This document shows, one piece after another, positions 2,460 through 20,375 of a DNA stretch of 20,375 bases (its first letter is position 1; every line of letters begins with the position of its first letter). The notes beneath the pieces are model-generated. The model was not told where the DNA came from and searched no databases. It was given only the letters and a program-made list of their open reading frames with translations. The position numbers and the translations under genes are program-made. The stretch is from a virus. The stretch lies in the IMG/VR virus record IMGVR_UViG_3300010885_022324, positions 1 to 20,375 of that record, one strand, 5' to 3'.

Positions 2460-2637
2460 CGAATTCATAGTAGAAACGACGGTAAGCGGTAGTATAGCCA
2501 CTGTGGCAATGCCCATGGGCCCAGTGATTACAAGAAATGGCGGATCCTTCTTTACTGGTAAATACATGAATAGTGCGGATCCGTATCCAAACACGCCTGC
2601 CTATATGAAAAAAGGAAAAAAACGCCGTGCTAGCTGA
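2449..2637 (+). CDS. Small protein with T4-like capsid-targeting N-terminus
   Basis: A 62-residue basic protein. It starts MRASEFIVE, closely paralleling the capsid-targeting sequence of T4 internal proteins as I remember it (MKTYQEFIAE), which the prohead protease cuts after (L/I)-x-E. Here the predicted cut is after E9 (I7-V8-E9|T10). The remainder is glycine- and proline-containing, apparently poorly structured, and ends in a basic tail (KKGKKRRAS) suited to nucleic acid contact. I infer a packaged internal head protein or peptide. It overlaps the preceding gene by 11 bases and the Dps gene by 11 bases, so its translation is probably coupled to both. The targeting motif is short, so the assignment is tentative. 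Confidence 0.6.
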   Translation: MRASEFIVETTVSGSIATVAMPMGPVITRNGGSFFTGKYMNSADPYPNTPAYMKKGKKRRAS

Positions 2638-3067
2638 TTTATTAAAAACCTATTTGGCATCAACATTTAGCTACTATTTGAAAGCTCATATGTTCCACTG
2701 GAACGTAGAAGGCCCAGACTTTGGCGAATTGCACGAATTTTTTAGCAACATTTATGAAGATGCATTTGGGGCTGTAGACCCTATTGCCGAATTTATCCGC
2801 ACCACAGAAGAATACGCACCCGGAAGCCTAAGTCGTTTCCATGAATTATCACAAATACAGGACCAAATCAAGGTTCCTCGTGCCCGATTAATGTTAGAAG
2901 AATTACTCGCAGATACACAAACCATGATAGACCTAAGCAAACAAATGTTTGATGCATCAACCGAAGCTGGTCGTGATGACGTTGCAAACTTTGCTGCAGA
3001 CAGAATGGCCGCTCATGGCAAGTATATGTGGCAACTTAAGAGTTATTTGAAAGCAATAAGGGCATGA
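2627..3067 (+). CDS. Dps-family ferritin-like protein
   Basis: A 146-residue four-helix protein of the Dps (DNA protection during starvation) type, which binds and oxidises iron in dodecamers and shields DNA. The dimer-interface signature is present: H24-W25-N26, H36, D51 and E55 have the same mutual spacing (12, 15, 4) as the E. coli Dps ferroxidase residues H51, H63, D78 and E82 as I remember them. The position matching E. coli D67 is Ser40, so one ligand is missing or displaced. There is almost no N-terminal tail before helix A, so the Lys-rich DNA-binding tail of E. coli Dps is absent. The start is a GTG at 2627 with AAGGA about ten bases upstream; it overlaps the preceding gene by 11 bases. 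In a phage this could protect virion or intracellular DNA, or sequester iron. Confidence 0.85.
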   Translation: MLADLLKTYLASTFSYYLKAHMFHWNVEGPDFGELHEFFSNIYEDAFGAVDPIAEFIRTTEEYAPGSLSRFHELSQIQDQIKVPRARLMLEELLADTQTMIDLSKQMFDASTEAGRDDVANFAADRMAAHGKYMWQLKSYLKAIRA

Positions 3068-6464: not shown

Positions 6465-7103
6465 ATGCGGGCCACGGATTTTCAAATTCGCAATCATGAT
6501 AAACTAGACGGTATCCTAGTGCGTCTCTGCGAACTGGTAATCCAAGGTCAACGCAAGGATCCTACAGAGTATGGCATGGTTGCCGCTGCCGTATTGGATC
6601 CCAACAACAACTGTGTAGCCGCATTAAATTATCGCAACAAGCAAGGAGATGTGCATGGTGAACGTGCAGCCATAGATGCTTACCATGATCGTTTTGGTGA
6701 GATCCCCGAAGGCAGTATTATACTAACTACTTGTAGTCCTTGCACCGAACCCATGTCTGATCGTGTAGGATCGAGTTGTCAGGACCTAATCAGTTCAACA
6801 CCAGTGCATAAAGTCTATGCCGGTTACAGAGATCCTAGTCAACAAACTGCGGCCGGTGATAAAACATATCACTTAGAAATTACCCGTAATCCTAAGATTC
6901 AAGAACTATGTCGAGCCTTTGCTGAGACTTGGCTCCGGAATGAATTAAATGAACTTGAATTCTTAGGTAGCCCATGCACCAAAGACTGTTCGGGTCATCG
7001 TGCTGGCTATGCGTGGAGTCAGAGCAAAGGTGGTCGTGTTGCAAACAGTCTATTTAGTCCCAGCTTCAACAATGGTAGTCAACTACACGTGGATGGTAAG
7101 TAA
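6465..7103 (+). CDS. Zinc-dependent deaminase-like protein with extra C-terminal module
   Basis: A 212-residue protein. Residues about 15-120 match the cytidine deaminase-like fold: H64-G65-E66 (zinc ligand and catalytic Glu) and a Cys motif TTCSPCTEPM with C90 and C93, followed by C105. The long spacing between C93 and C105 is nearer to RibD/TadA-type variants (PC...C) than to PCxxC dCMP deaminases. The substrate is unknown; a nucleotide or a pyrimidine/pterin precursor are possibilities. The C-terminal 45 residues are a separate module, SPCTKDCSGHRAGYAWSQSK... ending SPSFNNG, with two Cys and a His. I have seen this CSGH-AGY module at the C-termini of otherwise unrelated phage proteins; its role is unknown. 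The gene begins MRATDF, resembling other cassette starts, and follows the previous stop with no gap and only a weak ribosome binding site. Confidence 0.7.
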   Translation: MRATDFQIRNHDKLDGILVRLCELVIQGQRKDPTEYGMVAAAVLDPNNNCVAALNYRNKQGDVHGERAAIDAYHDRFGEIPEGSIILTTCSPCTEPMSDRVGSSCQDLISSTPVHKVYAGYRDPSQQTAAGDKTYHLEITRNPKIQELCRAFAETWLRNELNELEFLGSPCTKDCSGHRAGYAWSQSKGGRVANSLFSPSFNNGSQLHVDGK

Positions 7104-7798: not shown

Positions 7799-8848
7799 AT
7801 GCATCAAGACATCATAAAATTTTGGAAATACAGTCCTGTCAAAAAACCCAAATACAAGGGAAAATTTTGTTATAAACCATTTGAAGTCATACAAATTGAC
7901 GGCGACGGTGATGTGCAATTATGTACCTGCGCAATACACATGCCCTATACCCTTGGCAACATCTATCAAGACACTTTACAAGATATTTGGCTTAGCGAAG
8001 GTGCTAATCGCGTAAGGCAAGCAGTAGCCGACGAAGATTTTACCTATTGTAGTTGGAGTTGCGATTTTTTGCATACTCTACCCAATCGTCCAGCCGTGTT
8101 ACCCGTTGTTCAAGATTTTCCAAAAACTATCAAACTAAATATGGATCTTAGTTGTAATTTAAAATGCCCAAGTTGTCGAGAAGGCATTATCATTGAAAAA
8201 AACTCAACAAAAATTGACAAACAAATTGAATTATACAATCAAATAATACAATGGGGTATGGATGATCCTACTAAGATTTTAAAAATAATCCCAATGGGCA
8301 GCGGCGAAATTTTTGCCAGCCACAGCGGATTGGCTTTTTTGAAGTTATTAAAAGATTATCCTTACAATAATATCAAACTAGATATTACCACCAACGGAAC
8401 GTTGATCTACCGCAATCGTGAACTGCTTACTAGTATCAGACATTTAATTAATTCTTTTTCTATTAGTATCGATGCTTCAACACCCGAGACCTATGCTGTT
8501 GTTCGAGGAGGGGATTGGAATGAATTATTATTAGGATTAGAATTTATAAAAAATACTATTACAAAAAATTTGACTTTTAGATTTTGTATACAGAAAAACA
8601 ACTATCACGAAATTGAATCGTTTGCCGATTTTACTAGTCAGTATAATGCAGCTATAGTCTATCAAAAGCTCTTAGATTGGGGTCATTGGGATATAGCATG
8701 GTGGCATGATAATAATGTATTAGATCGATCTCGAGATACATTTAATCTAACACTTGATAGTATCCAACGAGTAAAATTGAAATATCCAAAATTGGGCTTT
8801 GCTGCTGAAATTAGCAAGTACTTGGAACAACGTAAAAAATCACCTTAG
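7799..8848 (+). CDS. Radical SAM protein with N-terminal SPASM-like cysteines
   Basis: A 349-residue protein. The N-terminal part has a SPASM-like pattern: C24 in FCYKPF, then IDGDGDVQLCTC with C42 and C44, a GNIYQDTLQDIW segment, and C84 and C88 in YCSWSC. The radical SAM cluster motif CxxxCxxC is C119-NLK-C123-PS-C126, followed by a glycine loop (MGSGE) and TNGTL. This order (SPASM first, radical SAM after) is the reverse of the usual C-terminal SPASM maturases. The enzyme would bind a 4Fe-4S cluster and an auxiliary cluster to generate a 5'-deoxyadenosyl radical; the substrate may be a peptide, sugar or nucleotide and is unknown. It is visibly AT-richer than the replication genes and sits with a glycosyltransferase-like gene, suggesting one cassette. 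No clear ribosome binding site precedes ATG 7799. Confidence 0.75.
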   Translation: MHQDIIKFWKYSPVKKPKYKGKFCYKPFEVIQIDGDGDVQLCTCAIHMPYTLGNIYQDTLQDIWLSEGANRVRQAVADEDFTYCSWSCDFLHTLPNRPAVLPVVQDFPKTIKLNMDLSCNLKCPSCREGIIIEKNSTKIDKQIELYNQIIQWGMDDPTKILKIIPMGSGEIFASHSGLAFLKLLKDYPYNNIKLDITTNGTLIYRNRELLTSIRHLINSFSISIDASTPETYAVVRGGDWNELLLGLEFIKNTITKNLTFRFCIQKNNYHEIESFADFTSQYNAAIVYQKLLDWGHWDIAWWHDNNVLDRSRDTFNLTLDSIQRVKLKYPKLGFAAEISKYLEQRKKSP

Positions 8849-10319: not shown

Positions 10320-12977
10320 TTGAGTTATGTAGATGCACTTTTTGATCGTGAACACGATCGTATTCATGTAGTTGAACGGAAGGATGGTCAAAGACACTAT
10401 CAAGAATATTCAGCCAACTACATCTTTTACTACGAGGATCCTCGTGGTAAATTCCAAAGCCTTTTTGGCACGCCTGTCAGCAGATTCAGCACACGCAACA
10501 ACAAAGAGTTTCGCAAAGAAATTCGCATACAGTCGGGCAAACAACTGTATGAGTCGGATATCAATCCAATCTTTCGTTGCTTAGAAGAAAACTACAAAGG
10601 ACAAGATGGTCCTCGACTAAACGTAGCGTTCTTTGACATTGAGGTAGACTTTGACCCCGAACGTGGTTTTAGTCCAACAACAGATCCATTCAATGCTATC
10701 ACTGCCATTTCAGTGTATCTGCAATGGTTAGAACAAATGGTCACCTTGGTTGTTCCACCCAAGCACATGAGTCGTGAGACTGCGGACGAGATTGCTAAGG
10801 AGTTTGAAAACTGTATCATCTTTGAACGTGAAGATGAAATGTTAAAAACATTCTTAGACTTGATTGAAGACGCCGATGCAATATCAGGATGGAATTCAGA
10901 GGGCTATGATATACCTTACACTGTAAATCGTGTCACTAGAATCCTCAGCAAAGACGACACACGGCGTTTTTGTTTGTGGAATCAGTATCCTAAGAAACGC
11001 ACATTTGAACGCTTTGGTGCTGAAAATGAAACCTATGATTTGATCGGCCGGGTGCATATGGATTATATGCAACTGTATCGCAAATACACTTATGAAGAAC
11101 GTCATAGTTATAGTTTGGATGCCATTGCTGAATACGAGCTACAAGAAACCAAGACAGTATTCGAAGGCACGTTAGATCAACTGTATAATCAAAACTTTAA
11201 AAAGTTTATTGAATACAACAGACAAGATACGATGATTCTAGCCAAGCTGGATAAGAAACTTAAATTCTTAGATCTTGCCAACACACTAGCACATGAGAAT
11301 ACTGTGTTGCTACAGACCACCATGGGTGCTGTGGCTGTAACTGAACAGGCCATTATCAATGAAGCACACGAACGTGGCATGGTTGTGCCCAATCGCAAAG
11401 AACGCTACAGTGATGAGGACACGCAGGCCGCTGGTGCATATGTGGCGTTTCCAAAGAAAGGCATCCATGAGTATGTGGGTAGTATAGATATTAACAGTTT
11501 GTATCCAAGTGCCATTAGAGCACTTAATATGGGTCCTGAAACTATCGTAGGACAACTCAGACCAATAATGACTGAACGTTACATCGGCGATAAGATGCGG
11601 GCAGGTAGTAGTTTTGCCGGTGCATGGGAAGGCCTGTTTGGCAGTTTAGAATACGAAGCAGTTATGAATACCGAAGTTGGCACAGAAATTACTATTGACT
11701 GGAAAGATGGTGAAGAGAGTGTGCATAGTGCAGCTGACGTATGGAAGATAATTTTTGATAGTAACCACCCTTGGATGATCACTGCCAACGGCACTATCTT
11801 TACCTATGAGAAAGAAGCAGTTATTCCTGGCTTGTTAAAACGCTGGTATGCCGAGCGTAAAGAAATGCAGGCCAAATTGAAAGAATGTAAAAATGCAGAA
11901 GATGAAGAATATTGGGACAAACGACAACTCGTTAAAAAAATTAATCTTAACAGTCTCTATGGTGCTATCCTTAACCCTGGTTGCCGCTTTTTTGATAAGC
12001 GTATTGGACAGTCCACAACTCTTACTGGTCGTGCCATTGCCAAGCACATGGATGCTTATGTAAATGAATGTATTACTGGTGAATACGACCACACAGGCGA
12101 AGCAATCATCTACGGTGACACAGACTCTTGTTATTTTACAGCCTATCCTATACTACAAAAAGAAATAGAAGCAGGTAACATGACCTGGAACAGAGAAATT
12201 GCTGTGCAACTGTATAACAGTATTGCCGATCAAGTTAACGATAGCTTCCCAGGATTTATGGAACAAGCATTCCATGTGCCACGTGAAATGGGCGATGTAA
12301 TCAAAGGTGGTCGAGAGATTGTGGCCAGCAAAGGCTTGTTTATTACTAAAAAACGTTATGCTGTCATGTATTATGACAAAGAAAACAAGCGTGTAGACAC
12401 ACACGGATCGCCTGGCAAAGTAAAAGCCATGGGCCTTGATCTCAAACGCAGCGACACTCCTAAGGTCATTCAAGAATTCCTAAGTAAAATCCTAGACGAA
12501 GTGCTGATCGGCACCAGTCGTGAAGACATCATTGAAAAGATTCGCGAGTTTAAGTATTTGTTCAAAGAACGTCCAGGTTGGGAAAAAGGATCACCCAAAC
12601 GGGTAAACAACTTGACCAAATACGGCAAGGAAGAAGAACGCCTAGGTAAAGCCAACATGCCAGGGCATGTTCGTGCGGCACTTAACTGGAATAATCTACG
12701 CAGGATGAATGGCGACAAGTATAGTATGCAGATCGTAGACGGAATGAAAACTATTGTATGTAAACTCAAGAGTAATCCACTGGGATGGACCAGCATTGGT
12801 TATCCCACAGATGAACAACACTTGCCGCAATGGTTTAAAGAATTGCCATTTGCTGACAGCGAAATGGAAGCCACAGTAGTAGATCAAAAATTAGACAACT
12901 TGTTAGGTGTATTAGAGTGGGACCTAGCGTCAGCTACTAATACTGAAAACACTTTCCAGACCTTATTCGAGTGGTAA
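10320..12977 (+). CDS. 43: Replicative family B DNA polymerase (T4 gp43 type)
   Basis: An 885-residue DNA-dependent DNA polymerase with a proofreading 3'-5' exonuclease, near the length of T4 gp43 (898). Exonuclease motifs: D106-I-E108 in FFDIEVDFD (Exo I), N192...D197 in GWNSEGYD (Exo II), and YNRQD with D303 (Exo III). Polymerase motifs: motif A DINSLYPS with D390, motif B KINLNSLYG with N544, and motif C YGDTDS with D600 and D602; KKRYAV follows, as in family B enzymes. All catalytic residues look intact. The start is a TTG at 10320, supported by GGAG six bases upstream and an N-terminal sequence that fits gp43. It should work with the sliding clamp encoded at 13985. It is preceded by a structured leader and followed one base later by the methyltransferase-like gene. 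Confidence 0.97.
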   Translation: MSYVDALFDREHDRIHVVERKDGQRHYQEYSANYIFYYEDPRGKFQSLFGTPVSRFSTRNNKEFRKEIRIQSGKQLYESDINPIFRCLEENYKGQDGPRLNVAFFDIEVDFDPERGFSPTTDPFNAITAISVYLQWLEQMVTLVVPPKHMSRETADEIAKEFENCIIFEREDEMLKTFLDLIEDADAISGWNSEGYDIPYTVNRVTRILSKDDTRRFCLWNQYPKKRTFERFGAENETYDLIGRVHMDYMQLYRKYTYEERHSYSLDAIAEYELQETKTVFEGTLDQLYNQNFKKFIEYNRQDTMILAKLDKKLKFLDLANTLAHENTVLLQTTMGAVAVTEQAIINEAHERGMVVPNRKERYSDEDTQAAGAYVAFPKKGIHEYVGSIDINSLYPSAIRALNMGPETIVGQLRPIMTERYIGDKMRAGSSFAGAWEGLFGSLEYEAVMNTEVGTEITIDWKDGEESVHSAADVWKIIFDSNHPWMITANGTIFTYEKEAVIPGLLKRWYAERKEMQAKLKECKNAEDEEYWDKRQLVKKINLNSLYGAILNPGCRFFDKRIGQSTTLTGRAIAKHMDAYVNECITGEYDHTGEAIIYGDTDSCYFTAYPILQKEIEAGNMTWNREIAVQLYNSIADQVNDSFPGFMEQAFHVPREMGDVIKGGREIVASKGLFITKKRYAVMYYDKENKRVDTHGSPGKVKAMGLDLKRSDTPKVIQEFLSKILDEVLIGTSREDIIEKIREFKYLFKERPGWEKGSPKRVNNLTKYGKEEERLGKANMPGHVRAALNWNNLRRMNGDKYSMQIVDGMKTIVCKLKSNPLGWTSIGYPTDEQHLPQWFKELPFADSEMEATVVDQKLDNLLGVLEWDLASATNTENTFQTLFEW

Positions 12978-12978
12978 C

Positions 12979-13950
12979 ATGAAACTAAGTGAACTAGTTG
13001 CCTATAAAAATCTATTAGATCTTACAAGTGCTCGAGCCACTCAGGATACAACTAGTCAAGATCTTAATCGTATTATACATACCGTGGACAGTCGTGAAAT
13101 ACAAATGTCTGATCATTTATTAATGCATAAAAATAATCTAAGTCAAACATTTGATTTATTTGAACAAGAACTAGATAATTTAAAACAACAACTTAATGAA
13201 ATGATAACTGAAGCTGAAAAACCCATGTTTCAGCAAAGCTACAGACTATATGAAGAAGAAAAAACACATGTTGATTCAGAACAAATGTATAAAGACCATA
13301 CTGAGTATGTATTAAATAGGCGTTTAAAAGTTACCGATGAAAATTATCAAATATTCTTAGCCAGGCTCATGACCTACACCAATTGGCAACATGCAGGCAT
13401 GGTATTACATCCAGGCCGAGAATCATTTATCAATCATATGGTAACCAATGATCCATTATACATTGTAGATGAAAATTATGATTTAATACAACCAGCAATA
13501 AGTCAATTCAACGAATTTTATCAAACTCGCTTACGCATCAGTACAGTAAAAGAAGCCGCCAATACACCCTGGTTGACCAAAATACCCAATGGACAACTGG
13601 GTGTATGTCTTGCCTATAACTTTTTTAACTACAAACCATTTGAAGTTGTAAAGCAGTACCTGTTTGAAATTTATCAAAAACTCAAACCTGGCGGTACTTT
13701 AATTATGACATTTAACGATTGTGACAGATACGCAGCGGTACAGCTGGTCGAACAGTTTTATACCGCATACACGCCTGGAAATATGTTGCGAGGTTGGGCC
13801 AACCATGTAGGATTTAAAGAAATCTTTTGCTACCACAACGACGGTCCTAGTACATGGATCGAATTACAAAAACCTGGGGACTTGACATCATTGCGTGGAG
13901 GCCAGTCCCTAGCAAGAATATTACCTAAACCTGTTGCAGAATCTAAATAA
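12979..13950 (+). CDS. Methyltransferase-fold-like protein with N-terminal coiled coil
   Basis: A 323-residue protein. Residues about 40-100 form a charged coiled coil (SQTFDLFEQELDNLKQQLNE). The C-terminal two-thirds resemble a Rossmann-type class I methyltransferase: VCLAYNFFNYKPF near residue 209, then YQKLKPGGTLIMTFNDCD with L235-K-P-G-G, the usual post-core loop and strand. However, the GxGxG SAM-binding motif is not seen at the expected place; PLYIVDENYD may be its degenerate counterpart, so catalysis is doubtful. I recall the C-terminal ELQKPGDLTSLRGGQ motif as typical of marine T4-like phages. It starts one base after the polymerase stop, with only a weak ribosome binding site, so it is probably translationally coupled to the polymerase. 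Its role is unknown. Confidence 0.6.
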   Translation: MKLSELVAYKNLLDLTSARATQDTTSQDLNRIIHTVDSREIQMSDHLLMHKNNLSQTFDLFEQELDNLKQQLNEMITEAEKPMFQQSYRLYEEEKTHVDSEQMYKDHTEYVLNRRLKVTDENYQIFLARLMTYTNWQHAGMVLHPGRESFINHMVTNDPLYIVDENYDLIQPAISQFNEFYQTRLRISTVKEAANTPWLTKIPNGQLGVCLAYNFFNYKPFEVVKQYLFEIYQKLKPGGTLIMTFNDCDRYAAVQLVEQFYTAYTPGNMLRGWANHVGFKEIFCYHNDGPSTWIELQKPGDLTSLRGGQSLARILPKPVAESK

Positions 13951-13962: not shown

Positions 13963-13984
13963 CAAACAATAAGGAGAATTGCCC

Positions 13985-14707
13985 ATGAGAGATCATTTAT
14001 TAGACTTAGTAGAACACACACATAAATTAGGTGTCATTGACCTGGTTAAAATTACCGGTGACGATAAGTCATCTGAAATCTTTGGTGTTGCTGAAGATCG
14101 TAGCGTAGTAGTAGAAGGCAAGTATGCCAATCCAGTTCCAGAATTTATTGGCTTGTTTGGCATGCCAAATTTGGCTAAACTCAACATCCTGTTGAACTTG
14201 CCAGAGTACAAAGAAGGTGCTGACCTTAGCGTTACAAAAAAAGATACAGGAGCACCCGATGGTATTAGTTTTCAAAATGCCACAAAGGATTTTAAAAACA
14301 CATATCGTTTCATGGCCAGTGAGATTGTAACTGAAAAGGCCAAGACAGTCAAATTTAAAGGTGTCAACTGGCACATTGAATTTGAACCAACTGTAGCCTC
14401 TATCCAGCGATTAAAAATGCAAGCCAGTGCCAACGCCGAAGAAGTTAATTTCCAAGCCAAAACTGAAAATGGCGACTTGAAGTTTTTCTTTGGTGATCAT
14501 AGCACACACGCTGGTAACTTTGTATTTCAATCCGGAGTAACAGGCACTCTTAAACGCACATGGTCGTGGCCAATTAAAACAGTGATTAGCATTCTTGACC
14601 TCACTGGCGACAAAGTAATGAAGATCAGTGACGACGGTGCGGCTCAAATTACTGTTGATTCAGGAATTGCCGTTTACACTTATATTATTCCAGCACAATC
14701 TAAATAA
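13985..14707 (+). CDS. 45: Sliding clamp, T4 gp45/PCNA type
   Basis: A 240-residue protein beginning at ATG 13985 with AAGGAG eight bases upstream; an in-frame TTG at 13979 is rejected because it would lie too close to the ribosome binding site. The sequence has the two-domain, strand-rich pattern of DNA sliding clamps: hydrophobic alternation, VKFKGVNWHIEF in the middle, and a C-terminal WPIKTVISILDLTGDKVMKISDDG followed by VDSGIAVYTYIIPA. This resembles the PCNA/gp45 C-terminus. Clamps encircle DNA and hold the polymerase; its partner is the gp43-type polymerase upstream. Identity is from fold-like pattern and my memory of marine T4-like clamps, not from exact alignment. It has its own promoter. 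Confidence 0.75.
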   Translation: MRDHLLDLVEHTHKLGVIDLVKITGDDKSSEIFGVAEDRSVVVEGKYANPVPEFIGLFGMPNLAKLNILLNLPEYKEGADLSVTKKDTGAPDGISFQNATKDFKNTYRFMASEIVTEKAKTVKFKGVNWHIEFEPTVASIQRLKMQASANAEEVNFQAKTENGDLKFFFGDHSTHAGNFVFQSGVTGTLKRTWSWPIKTVISILDLTGDKVMKISDDGAAQITVDSGIAVYTYIIPAQSK

Positions 14708-14710
14708 TTA

Positions 14711-16405
14711 ATGACCCAAGATAACTTAACTGCCAAGCAAAAAGATTACGCTGTATTCTTGCCAGCTATTAGTGGTTTCTATGCTACTTACATAGGCAAA
14801 CAACGTGATCCGGTTAATGGTCCGTATGTAGATCCTGCTCGTATGCCTGCTGGCCTTAAAGACATGGAAATGATGAACTGGCTTAATAGCACCAAAGGCC
14901 TATTTCCATACCGGTGGTCGCTTTACTCAGGCGGTCACGCTAACTTAGATCTAACCAAGCAGGACTGGTCAGAAGACATGGTTCGTAATCGTGAACCGGG
15001 CGGTGTAATGTTAGGTGACTCGGGTGGATTCCAGATTGCTAAGGGTTTATGGGAAGGTGAATGGCGTGATCCAACTAGCCCAGAAGTCTTGGCTAAAATA
15101 GCTGAACTCAAAGCCAAAGGTGTTGAGCATGTGTTGGATCTTAAACCAGATGGCACACCCAAGCACGACAAGAATGGCAACAAAAAATATGCCAAGATTG
15201 ATCATGTTAAAAACTATCAGAACTTGCTAGATGCCGCACAGAAGAAGCGTGAGGCTGTGGTTAAGTGGTTAGATGGTGTCGCTGATTATGGCATGACCTT
15301 AGACATACCAACCTGGGTTATACATGACAAAAATGCCAGTGACAAGTGCGGTATCACTACCCTAGAAGAAGCCGTGGCTGCTACCAAGTATAACAATGAC
15401 TACTATATGCGACATCGCAAGGGTGCCAAGAATGGTGGTATGAAAGTGCTGAATGTTTTACAAGGTGCTAACCATGCTGATGCAGATCGTTGGTATGACA
15501 CTATGAAACACTATTGTGATCCTAACTTGTATCCAGACACACACTTTGATGGTTGGTCAATGGGTGGTCAGAACATGTGCGATGTGCATTTGGTATTACG
15601 TAGACTTGTAGCATTGCGCCATGATGGATTACTCCAAGAAGGTGTCCATGATTGGATGCACTTCTTAGGCACAAGCAAACTAGAATGGGCTGTGCTACTG
15701 ACAGACATCCAAAGAGCTGTTCGCAAGTATGTTAATCCTGCTTTTACCATCAGCTTTGACTGTGCGTCGCCGTTCCTGGCCACAGCCAACGGACAGGTAT
15801 ATCATCACATTGATCTACCACACAACGACAAGTGGTGTTATAGAATGAGTCCTATTGCTGACGACAAGAAGTATAGCACAGACACACGCCCATACGGTCA
15901 AGCAGTGGTAGCTGACGGATTGGTTGATCACTTTGACGAAAGCCCAATTAGTCTACAGTTACAAATGAAAGATGTTTGTTACTACCAACCTGGTATGCTA
16001 AACAAAATTGGTAAAGAAGGCAAGACGTCGTGGGACAGTTTCAGTTACGCATTGTTAATGGGCCATAATGTTTGGATGCATCTTGAAGCAGTACAGCGAG
16101 CCAATCGTGAATATGACAACGGATCGTTTCCTGCTATGATGTGGCATCAAAATGGCGACCATGCTCGATTTAAAGATATTGTAGATGCTATCTTTGCTAC
16201 ATCAGACCGTGCCGAAGCCGAAGCTATCATTGAACACTACGACCGTTATTGGATGGACATTATTGGTACTCGTGGTTTCAAAGGCAAGAAGGCCAAGAAC
16301 GCACACAGTCAATTCAATGCCTTGTTTGAGGAAGCCGATGTTGATACCGAAAGCGAAGACGACGTAGAATTTGACGAATCAAAATTAGACAATTTGGAGG
16401 CATGA
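14711..16405 (+). CDS. dpdA: DpdA-like DNA/tRNA guanine transglycosylase
   Basis: A 564-residue TGT-fold protein. Two TGT signatures are visible: GDSGGFQ with D103, equivalent to the substrate-recognising Asp of bacterial tRNA-guanine transglycosylase, and SFDCASPFLATANGQ with D350, matching the nucleophile motif FDCVxPTRxxRNG. A later LMGHNVWMHLEAVQ resembles the TGT HN...L helix. The TGT zinc site CxCxxC is not seen after D350, which suggests a divergent member. DpdA proteins exchange guanine in DNA for a 7-deazaguanine (preQ0-like) base in phages and bacterial genomic islands. Placement right after the clamp and polymerase supports a DNA target, though tRNA action cannot be excluded. It lies three bases after the clamp gene with a weak ribosome binding site; similar proteins occur in marine T4-like phages, to my memory. 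Confidence 0.8.
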   Translation: MTQDNLTAKQKDYAVFLPAISGFYATYIGKQRDPVNGPYVDPARMPAGLKDMEMMNWLNSTKGLFPYRWSLYSGGHANLDLTKQDWSEDMVRNREPGGVMLGDSGGFQIAKGLWEGEWRDPTSPEVLAKIAELKAKGVEHVLDLKPDGTPKHDKNGNKKYAKIDHVKNYQNLLDAAQKKREAVVKWLDGVADYGMTLDIPTWVIHDKNASDKCGITTLEEAVAATKYNNDYYMRHRKGAKNGGMKVLNVLQGANHADADRWYDTMKHYCDPNLYPDTHFDGWSMGGQNMCDVHLVLRRLVALRHDGLLQEGVHDWMHFLGTSKLEWAVLLTDIQRAVRKYVNPAFTISFDCASPFLATANGQVYHHIDLPHNDKWCYRMSPIADDKKYSTDTRPYGQAVVADGLVDHFDESPISLQLQMKDVCYYQPGMLNKIGKEGKTSWDSFSYALLMGHNVWMHLEAVQRANREYDNGSFPAMMWHQNGDHARFKDIVDAIFATSDRAEAEAIIEHYDRYWMDIIGTRGFKGKKAKNAHSQFNALFEEADVDTESEDDVEFDESKLDNLEA

Positions 16406-17361: not shown

Positions 17362-17877
17362 ATGAACAGAGCAGGACATGAAAACGTAAGTTTCTTTATA
17401 GGAACCGAAGTAGAGCATACTGTTGCATTTGGCAAGCGAACATTATTTGTAGTGGGCTTACAAGACAGCCAAATTATCCAACAAGAAGCCAAGAACAACG
17501 ACTGTGAACATATCTACTTTGGTGCTGACCAAAGTTTCCCAGCCCTAGATAAAAACGATGCTGATGCCTGGCAGGATTGGGAATACATGATACAGTCATG
17601 CTTAGAAGCTGGGTGGTTATGCACTCTTGATCTAGATCATGCACAAGCAGAAGGCCTGTTAGAAAGTGGCCTAGTAGAGTTCCATAATTTCGTTCCCATG
17701 ATCAGTGTCAAACTTCCTTATATAAAACAATTTGGATACCATGCTACTCTTAAAATTGATGACCGAGATTTTGCGGCAACAAACCCAGGCGTGTGGTGTC
17801 ACAGCCTACACGACTTACAAAATTCCAAGGTGTTCACTGACTGGTCTAAATATACCAAGGACGAAGTAATACAATGA
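17362..17877 (+). CDS. Conserved marine-phage protein of unknown function (171 aa)
   Basis: A 171-residue protein. It has recognisable motifs FFIGTEVEHT, FGKRTLFVVG, HIYFGADQSFP, LCTLDLDHA and NPGVWCHSLHDL, which I recall as conserved in marine T4-like phages, without a known function. Alternating strands and helices suggest a Rossmann-like or TIM-barrel-like fold. There is no CxxxCxxC, so it is not a radical SAM enzyme. Acidic patches and several His/Asp residues could bind metal but this is speculation. An AGGA sequence at 17352-17355 precedes ATG 17362. It overlaps the following gene by four bases (ATGA at 17874). Its position between SGNH, radical SAM and DpdA genes makes it a candidate partner in modification. 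Confidence 0.55.
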   Translation: MNRAGHENVSFFIGTEVEHTVAFGKRTLFVVGLQDSQIIQQEAKNNDCEHIYFGADQSFPALDKNDADAWQDWEYMIQSCLEAGWLCTLDLDHAQAEGLLESGLVEFHNFVPMISVKLPYIKQFGYHATLKIDDRDFAATNPGVWCHSLHDLQNSKVFTDWSKYTKDEVIQ

Positions 17878-18191
17878 GAGACTGGCTAAGACAACGACTG
17901 CTACATTTTTTAATGGATGCCGAACCTAGCAGGCCCAGCAGGATAGGTCGCAGAAACATTAGTGTTTCATTGGGTGACGAAGAACTATGCGATGACAGTC
18001 CAGGTGGCATTGACCTTCCGGATCCTATTGTGTTTAAGGTACAAGCAGTATCAGGAGGCACAATAGTAGAAACACGCTGGTTTGATTACAAGAAGGACGA
18101 GAATCGTGTCAAACTGCACATCATCACACAAGAAGAAAACTTAGCCGAATCTATTGGTAAAATCGTAACTATGGAACTATTACAAAAATGA
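17874..18191 (+). CDS. Small unrecognised phage protein (105 aa)
   Basis: A 105-residue protein starting at ATG 17874, overlapping the previous stop as ATGA. It begins with an Arg-rich amphipathic helix (MRDWLRQRLLHFLMDAE), followed by an acidic stretch and a strand-rich C-terminal half (PIVFKVQAVSGGTIVETRWF, VKLHIITQEENLAESIGKI). The C-terminal part resembles a small domain of many tailed-phage genomes, with no assigned function. No signal peptide, metal-binding cluster or catalytic motif is visible. It overlaps the next radical SAM gene by four bases (ATGA at 18188), so the three genes from 17362 onward are translationally coupled. Confidence 0.5.
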   Translation: MRDWLRQRLLHFLMDAEPSRPSRIGRRNISVSLGDEELCDDSPGGIDLPDPIVFKVQAVSGGTIVETRWFDYKKDENRVKLHIITQEENLAESIGKIVTMELLQK

Positions 18192-19297
18192 AAAATTTTT
18201 GTGCGTTGCCATTCCATCACGTTCAAGTGCGAACAAATGGTGATTTTAATGTGTGTTGTGTTCATGACATGTCGGAAAGTCAAAATTTAAATATTAACAA
18301 TTGCACAGTAGACGAATGGCGTAACTCTGAGTACATGACCGAAATAACACAATCTTTTTTAGATGATAAAAGACATACTGGATGCTCAGATTGCTGGAAA
18401 AAAGAAGACCATGGATTTGTTAGTCTACGGCAACGCACCGCTAATGAATACAAAATACTTGAAATAAATGTCGACGAAAGAAAAATAACCAATGTTGAAA
18501 TTAGTCTTTCAAATCAATGCAATCTTACATGTCATATGTGTAATGAGAATGAGAGCAGTGCAATTTTAGCAGAGAATGTAAAATTAGGAATTAATTTAAA
18601 ATTACAAAAAGATTTTAAATGGTCAGATCAAGGGTATCAAAATCTACAAGCATTGTTGATGCAAAATCCCAAATTGGTTAATATCAAAGGGGGAGAACCA
18701 TTTTATGTAAAAAAACTGCTTGAATTAATTGAAAATATTCCAGAAGAGCGTGCCGGAACCATGGCTCTACATATAACTACCAATGCCACTATGTGGAGCA
18801 ACCGTTGGCACGAAGCTTTAAAAAAATTCAAATTAATAAGATTTATGTTCAGCATAGATGCTACAGGCGACCTTTATGAATATATGAGATTTCCTGGTAA
18901 TTGGGAAACAGTGCAATCTAACATAGATGCTATATGCAAATTACCTAATGCTCAATTTTTGGTACATTGTGTTGTTCAAAATCTTAATATAGGATCTCTC
19001 GGACAGTTAATTAATTGGTGCAAGGACAAGTCTTTATGGTTAAATTTTGATCTTTTAGATCAACCTCAATATTTAAAAATAACCAATCTTTCCGAACAAC
19101 AAAAATCTAAGGCCTTGTTGCATCTCAAAAATATTGATCGTTCTACCTTGGAATCACATCATATACAAACTATAGACAACAGCATAAAACTGCTCGAATC
19201 GTGCTATACTGAGACTGCCGAATGGAATGAGTTTGTAAAAAACATTTCAATGAGGGATCGTGTACGAGGCAACAACTATCGTGAATTTATCAACTAA
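18188..19297 (+). CDS. Radical SAM protein with twitch/SPASM-like N-terminus
   Basis: A 369-residue protein. The N-terminal region has SPASM/twitch-like cysteines: C5 in NFCALPF, C23-C24 in NGDFNVCC, and C66 and C69 in GCSDC. The radical SAM cluster motif is C111-NLT-C115-HM-C118, then IKGGEPF as the glycine-rich SAM loop and TTNATMW. The order is auxiliary cysteines first, like the protein at 7799-8848, but the two sequences are clearly not duplicates. The substrate is unknown; proteins called 'twitch domain radical SAM' appear in marine phages. It starts within an ATGA overlap with the preceding gene and is AT-rich. Together with the first radical SAM gene it suggests separate acquisitions of radical chemistry. 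Confidence 0.7.
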   Translation: MKNFCALPFHHVQVRTNGDFNVCCVHDMSESQNLNINNCTVDEWRNSEYMTEITQSFLDDKRHTGCSDCWKKEDHGFVSLRQRTANEYKILEINVDERKITNVEISLSNQCNLTCHMCNENESSAILAENVKLGINLKLQKDFKWSDQGYQNLQALLMQNPKLVNIKGGEPFYVKKLLELIENIPEERAGTMALHITTNATMWSNRWHEALKKFKLIRFMFSIDATGDLYEYMRFPGNWETVQSNIDAICKLPNAQFLVHCVVQNLNIGSLGQLINWCKDKSLWLNFDLLDQPQYLKITNLSEQQKSKALLHLKNIDRSTLESHHIQTIDNSIKLLESCYTETAEWNEFVKNISMRDRVRGNNYREFIN

Positions 19298-19321: not shown

Positions 19322-19771
19322 ATGATACAACAAGAACGCGAAACAGTAGAACGTATTAAAGAAGCCGCACACAGACAAATTTGGGTCACTTTCCAAAAAG
19401 AAGGTATCCATTGCTATCCAGCAGCGGCAACAGACCCGATGTTAAATACTAATGATGAATATAATGTTGCGTTCCTTGCTAGCCCTCATCGTCATATTTT
19501 CCATTTCAGGGTGTCAATCGATGTGTTCCACAATGATAGGGACATCGAGTTCATCCAGTTCAAACGATGGCTCATTGCGTTGTATTCAGGTCAAGATTCC
19601 GTTTTAGAATTAAATTATAAGTCATGCGAAATGATTGCAGACGACTTATATATACAAATTGCTCAACGATATCCCAATCGTTGTGTTATAATCGAAGTAT
19701 CCGAGGACGGCGAGAACGGATGCTCCATTAGTTATAACCTTACTCGCCCAACATCATCAATTGTAATTTAA
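19322..19771 (+). CDS. Conserved phage protein, possible T-fold (QueD/PTPS-like)
   Basis: A 149-residue protein. H56-R-H58 in SPHRHIFHFRVSI resembles the zinc-binding HxH and following strand of the QueD/PTPS T-fold; DIEFIQFKRWL could match the DFxxLK helix; SCEMIADDLYIQI resembles the PTxENxA helix; and VIIEVSEDGENGC resembles the V.V.E strand. C31 in GIHCYP is a candidate nucleophile. Spacing between C31 and HxH is longer than in QueD, so this may be a distant or unrelated fold. QueD makes a 7-deazaguanine precursor, so the guess fits the nearby DpdA-like gene, but is unproven. I recall this protein in phages as 'hypothetical'. GGAG at 19308-19311 lies ten bases before ATG 19322. Confidence 0.5.
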   Translation: MIQQERETVERIKEAAHRQIWVTFQKEGIHCYPAAATDPMLNTNDEYNVAFLASPHRHIFHFRVSIDVFHNDRDIEFIQFKRWLIALYSGQDSVLELNYKSCEMIADDLYIQIAQRYPNRCVIIEVSEDGENGCSISYNLTRPTSSIVI

Positions 19772-19782
19772 AAGGAAATATC

Positions 19783-20010
19783 ATGGGCAAGCCCCAACAT
19801 CGCGTAAACCCTAGAGCACTTCAAGCATTTGAAGATTTGTCAACCTATTTAGAATTCTGTGTCGACTTTGGCTACAGATATCGTGAAGAAGATTTGTATA
19901 ATTTTAAGAGCTATGCTTGGCAACAGTACAACAAGTTCACACAAGGCAAGAACGCCAAGAACATGTGGGATGAAGATGCCCGTAGATTCTCAGGATATCG
20001 CCGTGCGTAA
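19783..20010 (+). CDS. Small conserved phage protein (75 aa)
   Basis: A 75-residue protein, basic and aromatic-rich, beginning MGKPQHRVNPRAL and containing YNFKSYAWQQYNKF and KNAKNMWDEDARRFSGYRRA. It is predicted mostly helical. There is no membrane segment or catalytic motif. AAGGA six bases upstream gives a good ribosome binding site. Its last eight bases overlap the start of the glycosyltransferase-like gene. Function unknown; the basic character would allow nucleic acid binding. Confidence 0.55.
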   Translation: MGKPQHRVNPRALQAFEDLSTYLEFCVDFGYRYREEDLYNFKSYAWQQYNKFTQGKNAKNMWDEDARRFSGYRRA

Positions 20011-20375
20011 ACTATTCTATATGGGCTTAGAGAGCTACGAAGCTCGCTACACACTACAACTTACTGAATGGAACCGTCGTGTGTTTGATCGTCGTGGACT
20101 GGATGTTGTTTATGTTCCGGGTACCACAATTGACAACACACAAAGTATCAGCGTTGGCCAGGTGTTAGACGCACACGGTCGTAGTTACTTTGGTATGAGT
20201 CAGATGATGAATCTAGTTCAAATGATGCGGAATGGAGAAGTTACCAATGAAGATGTTATCTACTTTGAAGACATGTTTCAACCCGGTATTGAGAGCTTAC
20301 CTTATATTCTCGATCAAGTGCCTGAGTCTCAGCGTCCCCGTATTTTTGTACGTTGTCTTGCTCAAGCCATTGATC
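20003..20375 (+). CDS. Glycosyltransferase-like phage protein, 3' end missing
   Basis: The frame opens at GTG 20003, with AGGA at 19992-19995 seven bases upstream, overlaps the previous stop, and runs open to the window edge, so only about 124 residues are seen. An ATG at 20021 is an alternative start. The protein begins VRKLFYMGLESYEARY, with later motifs GQVLDAHGRSYFGMSQ, EDVIYFEDMFQPGIESL and PRIFVRCLAQAID. I recall a marine-phage family with these motifs that is annotated as a GT-B-type glycosyltransferase, possibly a DNA or surface glucosyltransferase. The catalytic half lies outside the window, so donor and acceptor cannot be judged. Confidence 0.5.
   Translation, partial: MRKLFYMGLESYEARYTLQLTEWNRRVFDRRGLDVVYVPGTTIDNTQSISVGQVLDAHGRSYFGMSQMMNLVQMMRNGEVTNEDVIYFEDMFQPGIESLPYILDQVPESQRPRIFVRCLAQAID

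Follow-up and report, generated by a model that had tools for sequence, protein, structure and literature searches.

A divergent TGT/DpdA-like transglycosylase near a phage DNA polymerase gene and its probable role in 7-deazaguanine modification of DNA

Genes at the locus and in related loci

The window, by which we mean the whole stretch of 20,375 nucleotides of viral DNA that was analysed, carries at 14711-16405 on the plus strand an intact open reading frame which begins with ATG 3 nt past the stop of the upstream gene and encodes a 564-aa protein, described here from its AlphaFold2 (AF2) fold, PDB fold matches and profile matches as a TGT/DpdA-like guanine transglycosylase. Directly upstream (13979-14707, plus strand) lies the gene of a probable sliding clamp. 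Support for this identity is only indirect: the protein belongs to phrog_12062, which is of unknown function, its homologue in Vibrio phage 2.275.O has a further match at E=6.7e-5 to phrog_223, a polymerase processivity factor, the homologue in phage Phosso carries a sliding-clamp annotation, and profile comparison with T4 gp45 gave only P=0.0086. A preliminary description of this DNA had placed the enzyme immediately after the clamp gene of a T4-like phage; the adjacency holds, the clamp is identified only in this indirect way, and a T4-like affiliation has not been established. The gene at 10320-12977 (plus strand; phrog_262, E=2.5e-193) is certainly that of a family B DNA polymerase (PolB).

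We collected 165 related loci, which are not independent of each other. PolB is present in 151 of them, and a clamp homologue precedes the transglycosylase gene in 161. The gene order in these loci is PolB, clamp, transglycosylase, a 171-aa protein, a 149-aa protein, a glycosyltransferase-like protein and then FolE, QueD and QueE. The 171-aa partner (17362-17877, plus strand) is conserved but of unknown function; its homologues, found in 133/165 loci, usually stand directly after the transglycosylase gene, and one adjoins DpdA2 in Acidovorax phage ACP17. Its AF2 model is confident (pLDDT 93.7), yet the PDB fold search returned nothing at E<=0.001. The 149-aa protein (19322-19771, plus strand; phrog_17812), a candidate for an enzyme that processes 7-carboxy-7-deazaguanine (CDG) in place of QueC, occurs in 125/165 loci. 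Of the GT-B-like glycosyltransferase gene (20003-20375, plus strand) only the start is in view, as it is cut by the window end; in a single-sequence search the fragment was matched at E=2.2e-62 by the profile of the downstream glycosyltransferases, a family found in 119/165 loci and with a weak PF00534 match in 14 of 35 members as well as weak PF13524 matches.

Several other genes of the window were noted. A 323-aa protein encoded between PolB and the clamp (12979-13950) resembles methyltransferases only very weakly (E=0.087) and has homologues in 91/162 related loci. There are two radical-SAM proteins whose products are unknown, one of the SPASM type (7799-8848) and one with a twitch domain (18188-19297; NF033640, E=1e-79); they were considered as QueE candidates and rejected, the latter matching QueE TIGR03365 only at E=0.017. 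A cytidine/dCMP-deaminase-like protein (6465-7103; PF00383, E=2.6e-8), for which a RibD-like match was also seen, and a phage-encoded Dps/ferritin-like protein (2627-3067; PF00210, E=1.6e-20) are also encoded. Outside the window, contigs assigned to metagenome-assembled genomes of Phycisphaerae, archaea and other taxa (L214-L217) have the genes of the clamp, the transglycosylase, the 149-aa protein and the glycosyltransferase in their phage-type form, and look like phage rather than host DNA.

Active-site motifs, predicted fold and relation to known enzymes

The complete set of motifs of tRNA-guanine transglycosylases (TGTs) is present in the protein and in the TGT order: DSGGFQ, which begins at residue 103 (15017-15034), LDIP with D198 (15299-15310), NVLQG (15452-15466), HFLG, and ISFD with D350 (SFDCASPF, 15752-15775), all on the plus strand. 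D103 we take, by analogy with TGT, to be the general acid/base. D198, placed by hhalign opposite the DEIP motif of DpdA2, is the proposed base-binding aspartate, NVLQG aligns with the IxQG motif of TGT, and D350, proposed as the covalent nucleophile, corresponds in the alignment to D264 in the FDCVMPTR segment of E. coli TGT. These roles are inferred. Across 166 relatives of 30-95% identity, residues D103, S104, G106, Q108, D198, P200, G252, H317, G320, D350 and S353 are identical without exception. The chance expectation of DSGGFQ in a protein of 564 aa is about 2e-5, judged from residue composition, which together with the invariance of the key residues argues that the DSGGFQ and D350 motifs are not fortuitous. 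The preliminary description had recognised both as the key TGT sites and had remarked on the absence of the usual CxCxxC zinc site; both observations were borne out, the zinc site being missing from the window protein and from all 166 relatives.

The AF2 model, built from 103 relatives, has a pLDDT of 92.8 and a pTM of 0.90. Only two PDB structures matched its fold at E<=0.001, both of them TGTs (prob 1.00), namely bacterial TGT 5lpt (E=4.6e-6) and the archaeal ArcTGT 1iq8 (E=7.9e-5), while the next-best match was a xylanase, which is not a TGT, at E=0.085. In the overlay on solved TGTs, one of the checks proposed earlier, TM-scores are only 0.28-0.41 with an rmsd of 11-12 Å, probably a reflection of large insertions; over all structures compared the overlay is loose (TM 0.28-0.64) and again shows large insertions. 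Among predicted viral structures the model matched DpdA2 of Vibrio phage nt-1 (R9TGF0, E=4.9e-8), a protein of Achromobacter phage Motura annotated as tRNA guanine transglycosylase, and a 596-aa protein that, judged by its length, is probably the 2.275.O relative.

A comparison with TGT/DpdA profiles had likewise been proposed, and its outcome was divided. Neither the window protein nor its profile has a significant match in Pfam, NCBIfam, PHROGs, PADLOC or PDB sequences, and the curated models of canonical TGTs (PF01702, TIGR00432) do not find it; one distant bacterial relative alone matches TIGR00432 directly (E=5.5e-6, 25.1 bits against a cut-off of 350). Profile-profile comparison, in contrast, placed the DpdA2 set at P=1.1e-7 and bacterial TGTs at P=5.7e-4, pairing D350 with the E. 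coli TGT nucleophile and D198 with DEIP, while unrelated families of the same loci gave P of 0.1-0.8 and column-shuffled controls P>=0.06. The family profile also finds the DpdA2 of ACP17 (E=0.0011). The PA5oct and 2.275.O proteins used as single-sequence queries had no matches in our collection, whereas the alignment query succeeded.

DpdA2 of nt-1 (YP_008125322; PMC6884629) resembles the family in its motifs (DSGG(F/L)Q, DxP, LG and ISYD/ISFD), in the lack of a zinc site and in having FolE, QueD and QueE nearby; the DNA of nt-1 contains dPreQ0 (PMC6884629). A family member of the 2.275.O type is similar to it by BLAST (E=8e-4), but the window protein is not significantly so, proteins of the window family are about 100 aa longer, and tblastn with either protein did not show the phages of the other group among the matches listed. 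The nt-1 type gene set FolE, QueD, QueE and QueC is also not met, as QueC is usually missing in the window family (present in 1/25 records). DpdA1 of Enterobacteria phage 9g shares the presumed base exchange and the position beside clamp and polymerase genes, which is found in CAjan too, and in RHph_N17 and Dp-1 the gene lies near the clamp. Nevertheless, no similarity of sequence to the window family can be detected (hhalign P=0.11), the 9g protein has 317 aa and no DSGGFQ, and 9g possesses QueC. Bacterial TGT and ArcTGT (PF01702, TIGR00432) have in common with the family the TIM-barrel fold and two catalytic aspartates, and differ from it by CxCxxC, by their recognition by PF01702 and by the absence of its large insertions. 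A 259-aa candidate in the FolE/QueE/QueD cluster of Cellulophaga phage phiST (CGPG_00065) matches the family only at P=0.001.

A place in the TGT/DpdA-like enzyme class, as the preliminary description proposed, is supported by the fold, by the motifs of the active site and by the profile comparison. By sequence comparison the family is neither DpdA1 nor DpdA2 and appears as a separate divergent subfamily homologous to DpdA2. Within the DpdA/TGT superfamily it has no annotation and stands closest to DpdA2, and it is most likely a DNA-guanine transglycosylase, with DNA as an inferred substrate. Cui et al. 2023 reportedly distinguished the divergent subfamilies DpdA3 and DpdA4 and DNA bearing CDG or 7-deazaguanine, and the subfamily described here may already have been named among these.

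Precursor genes, QueC and the 149-aa protein

No gene for FolE, QueC, QueD, QueE or QueF was detected within the window. It had been suspected that other phage genes of a 7-deazaguanine pathway lie outside it, and the relatives bear this out: of the 71 loci whose downstream sequence extends for 9.5 kb or more, 64 have FolE within 10 kb downstream of the transglycosylase and 41 have QueE. A relative whose enzyme is 91% identical (L051, genome G003) has FolE, QueD and QueE downstream. For the lineage of the window itself these genes are known only from such relatives, as its contig ends before them. In 25 large records with relatives, FolE and QueE were each detected in 23, PTPS/QueD in 18 and QueF in one; the QueE search missed the annotated QueE of Phosso. 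As background, the QueE of PA5oct is matched by only 119 of 50,697 phage records. Neither a Pfam TGT nor QueA was detected in any of the 25 records, so the window-family protein is the sole transglycosylase candidate found in these precursor-making phages. In 2.275.O the family member lies 1.2 kb ahead of QueF, a YhhQ-type transporter, QueC and FolE.

QueC exceeded the cut-off in two of the 25 records, but only that of 2.275.O is genuine, so 24 lack it. The other, in G003, is by our reading of the sequence an NAD-synthetase-like ORF beside the true QueE. As QueC is missing from nearly all of these records, neither preQ0 nor ADG is the product one would first expect; most of these phages may stop at CDG, and the product may differ from expectation.

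The 149-aa protein is present in 21 named phage records and stands close to FolE in the phages inspected, unrelated ones included; in Bakedbeans, RHph_I1_18 and D479 this is so with no window-type transglycosylase in view. Among 17 pathway-bearing phages, eight of the nine with the protein lack QueC, and QueC is present in all eight others (Fisher p=4e-4, uncorrected for kinship or for the choice of phages). In this set the protein is nearly confined to phages that lack QueC, and we infer that it acts on CDG. Comparison with QueD as a possible paralogue gave only P=0.0096. Cellulophaga phage phiST encodes a homologue. Cui et al. 2023 are said to have predicted a CDG decarboxylase, DpdL, and the phiST homologue may be this protein, in which case the 149-aa protein already has a name.

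Phages ACP17, X1 and ZZ01 have the glycosyltransferase next to DpdA2, with the 149-aa protein as another shared neighbour; in Phosso the glycosyltransferase stands between the 149-aa protein and FolE and the transglycosylase gene is elsewhere. Between glycosyltransferase and FolE many relatives carry a nucleotide-sugar epimerase (phrog_540; L051:16965-17909) and a DegT-type aminotransferase fragment (L051:17891-18484), possibly a sugar-donor pathway. A PF00156 phosphoribosyltransferase lies near FolE in 34 loci of one cluster, at a median of +5 kb, and an XGPRT-like gene is located within the deazaguanine cluster of ZZ01 (genes noted at L145:3761-4327, L082:11946-12377 and L174:736-1197); such an enzyme could recycle the guanine freed by transglycosylation. 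Alphaproteobacterial genomes contain a YhhQ-like transporter, this same GT-B-like type of glycosyltransferase and a member of the transglycosylase family together in seven loci (L220, L233, L237, L238, L241, L242 and L244), and the bacterial transglycosylases examined retain the catalytic motifs. In Shinella and Ciceribacter a divergent protein of 863-884 aa is encoded beside the family member (L219:2331-4919, L221:2257-4908); comparison of the Shinella protein with Pfam and PADLOC, and of that of Ciceribacter with NCBIfam, gave no match.

Proposed reaction, substrate and product

We propose that D350 would attack C1' of deoxyguanosine in phage DNA, that guanine would leave, and that D103, D198 and Q251 would hold the 7-deazaguanine base that replaces it, the swapped base protecting, as we infer, the phage DNA from restriction. 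FolE, QueD and QueE of the phage itself would make this base, and their genes are expected beyond the right end of the window. The base may be CDG, a CDG derivative made by the 149-aa protein, or preQ0 obtained via host QueC, options inferred from the near-constant absence of phage QueC. We consider this whole reading, of a TGT-superfamily base-exchange enzyme which acts like DpdA on phage DNA with a base supplied via phage FolE, QueD and QueE, to be quite probable. No measurements of base composition or enzymatic activity were found for any family member, and in the literature, as far as it was accessible to us, nothing specific was found on restriction resistance of PA5oct/MIJ3-type phages.

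Could the protein be an unrelated TIM-barrel enzyme in which DSGGFQ and SFD are coincidental? The absence of a match to any curated TGT family and the many TIM barrels among the weak fold matches would allow it, but with both PDB matches at E<=0.001 being TGTs, with motifs in TGT order that are invariant or nearly so across the family, and with pathway genes around it, this is extremely improbable, and the possibility that would have refuted the preliminary description is contradicted by fold, motifs and neighbourhood alike. Modification of host or phage tRNA in a queuosine- or archaeosine-like manner, favouring phage translation, is a different matter, since the closest solved folds are tRNA enzymes and the relatives on bacterial chromosomes are accompanied by a YhhQ-like transporter of queuosine precursors, which also fits tRNA modification. 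Nonetheless we think it unlikely: in phages the gene is tightly linked to DNA polymerase and clamp as in DpdA1 phages, QueA is absent from all 25 records, there is no zinc site, and the nearest proteins by profile and predicted fold are DpdA2, the type carried by phage nt-1, in the DNA of which dPreQ0 is present (PMC6884629). The clamp adjacency, the lack of QueA and the kinship to DpdA2 therefore favour DNA over tRNA without proving it, and the bacterial clusters leave tRNA possible.

An alternative that concerns the product and not the enzyme class is that preQ0 is inserted, the phage FolE, QueD and QueE boosting the flux and host QueC completing the synthesis, with the 149-aa protein and the glycosyltransferase in an unrelated role. 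Host QueC is common, the family member 2.275.O comes with its own QueC and QueF, and dPreQ0 is found in the DNA of the DpdA2 phage nt-1 (PMC6884629). Against this, in 24/25 records QueC alone has been lost while the phage pathway is otherwise complete, and the 149-aa protein is found where QueC is absent, so that we can regard preQ0 as a serious possibility without leaning towards it. Taken together, the lack of QueC, the presence of the 149-aa protein and the repeated occurrence of the glycosyltransferase point to a product other than preQ0-type bases. It is speculative, and in our opinion rather doubtful, that these genes form one module, widespread in phages and bacteria, in which CDG made without QueC would be processed by the 149-aa protein, inserted in DNA by the transglycosylase and provided with a sugar by the GT-B-like enzyme, giving a hitherto unseen glycosylated 7-deazaguanine, with the bacterial YhhQ clusters as a salvage version; transfer of sugar to the base is untested.

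Most novel among these results is that glycosyltransferase and transglycosylase are paired in phages and bacteria alike. Phages of the family are already in culture, and the product is therefore directly testable by mass spectrometry. Each of the 13 named phage records that gave a match, among them Pseudomonas jumbo phages studied for therapy, annotates it only as a hypothetical protein, and relatives of the enzyme are encoded by at least 600 environmental sequence stretches. If the family is truly one of DNA-guanine transglycosylases, many large phages would hide DNA with 7-deazaguanine that is missed by current annotation.
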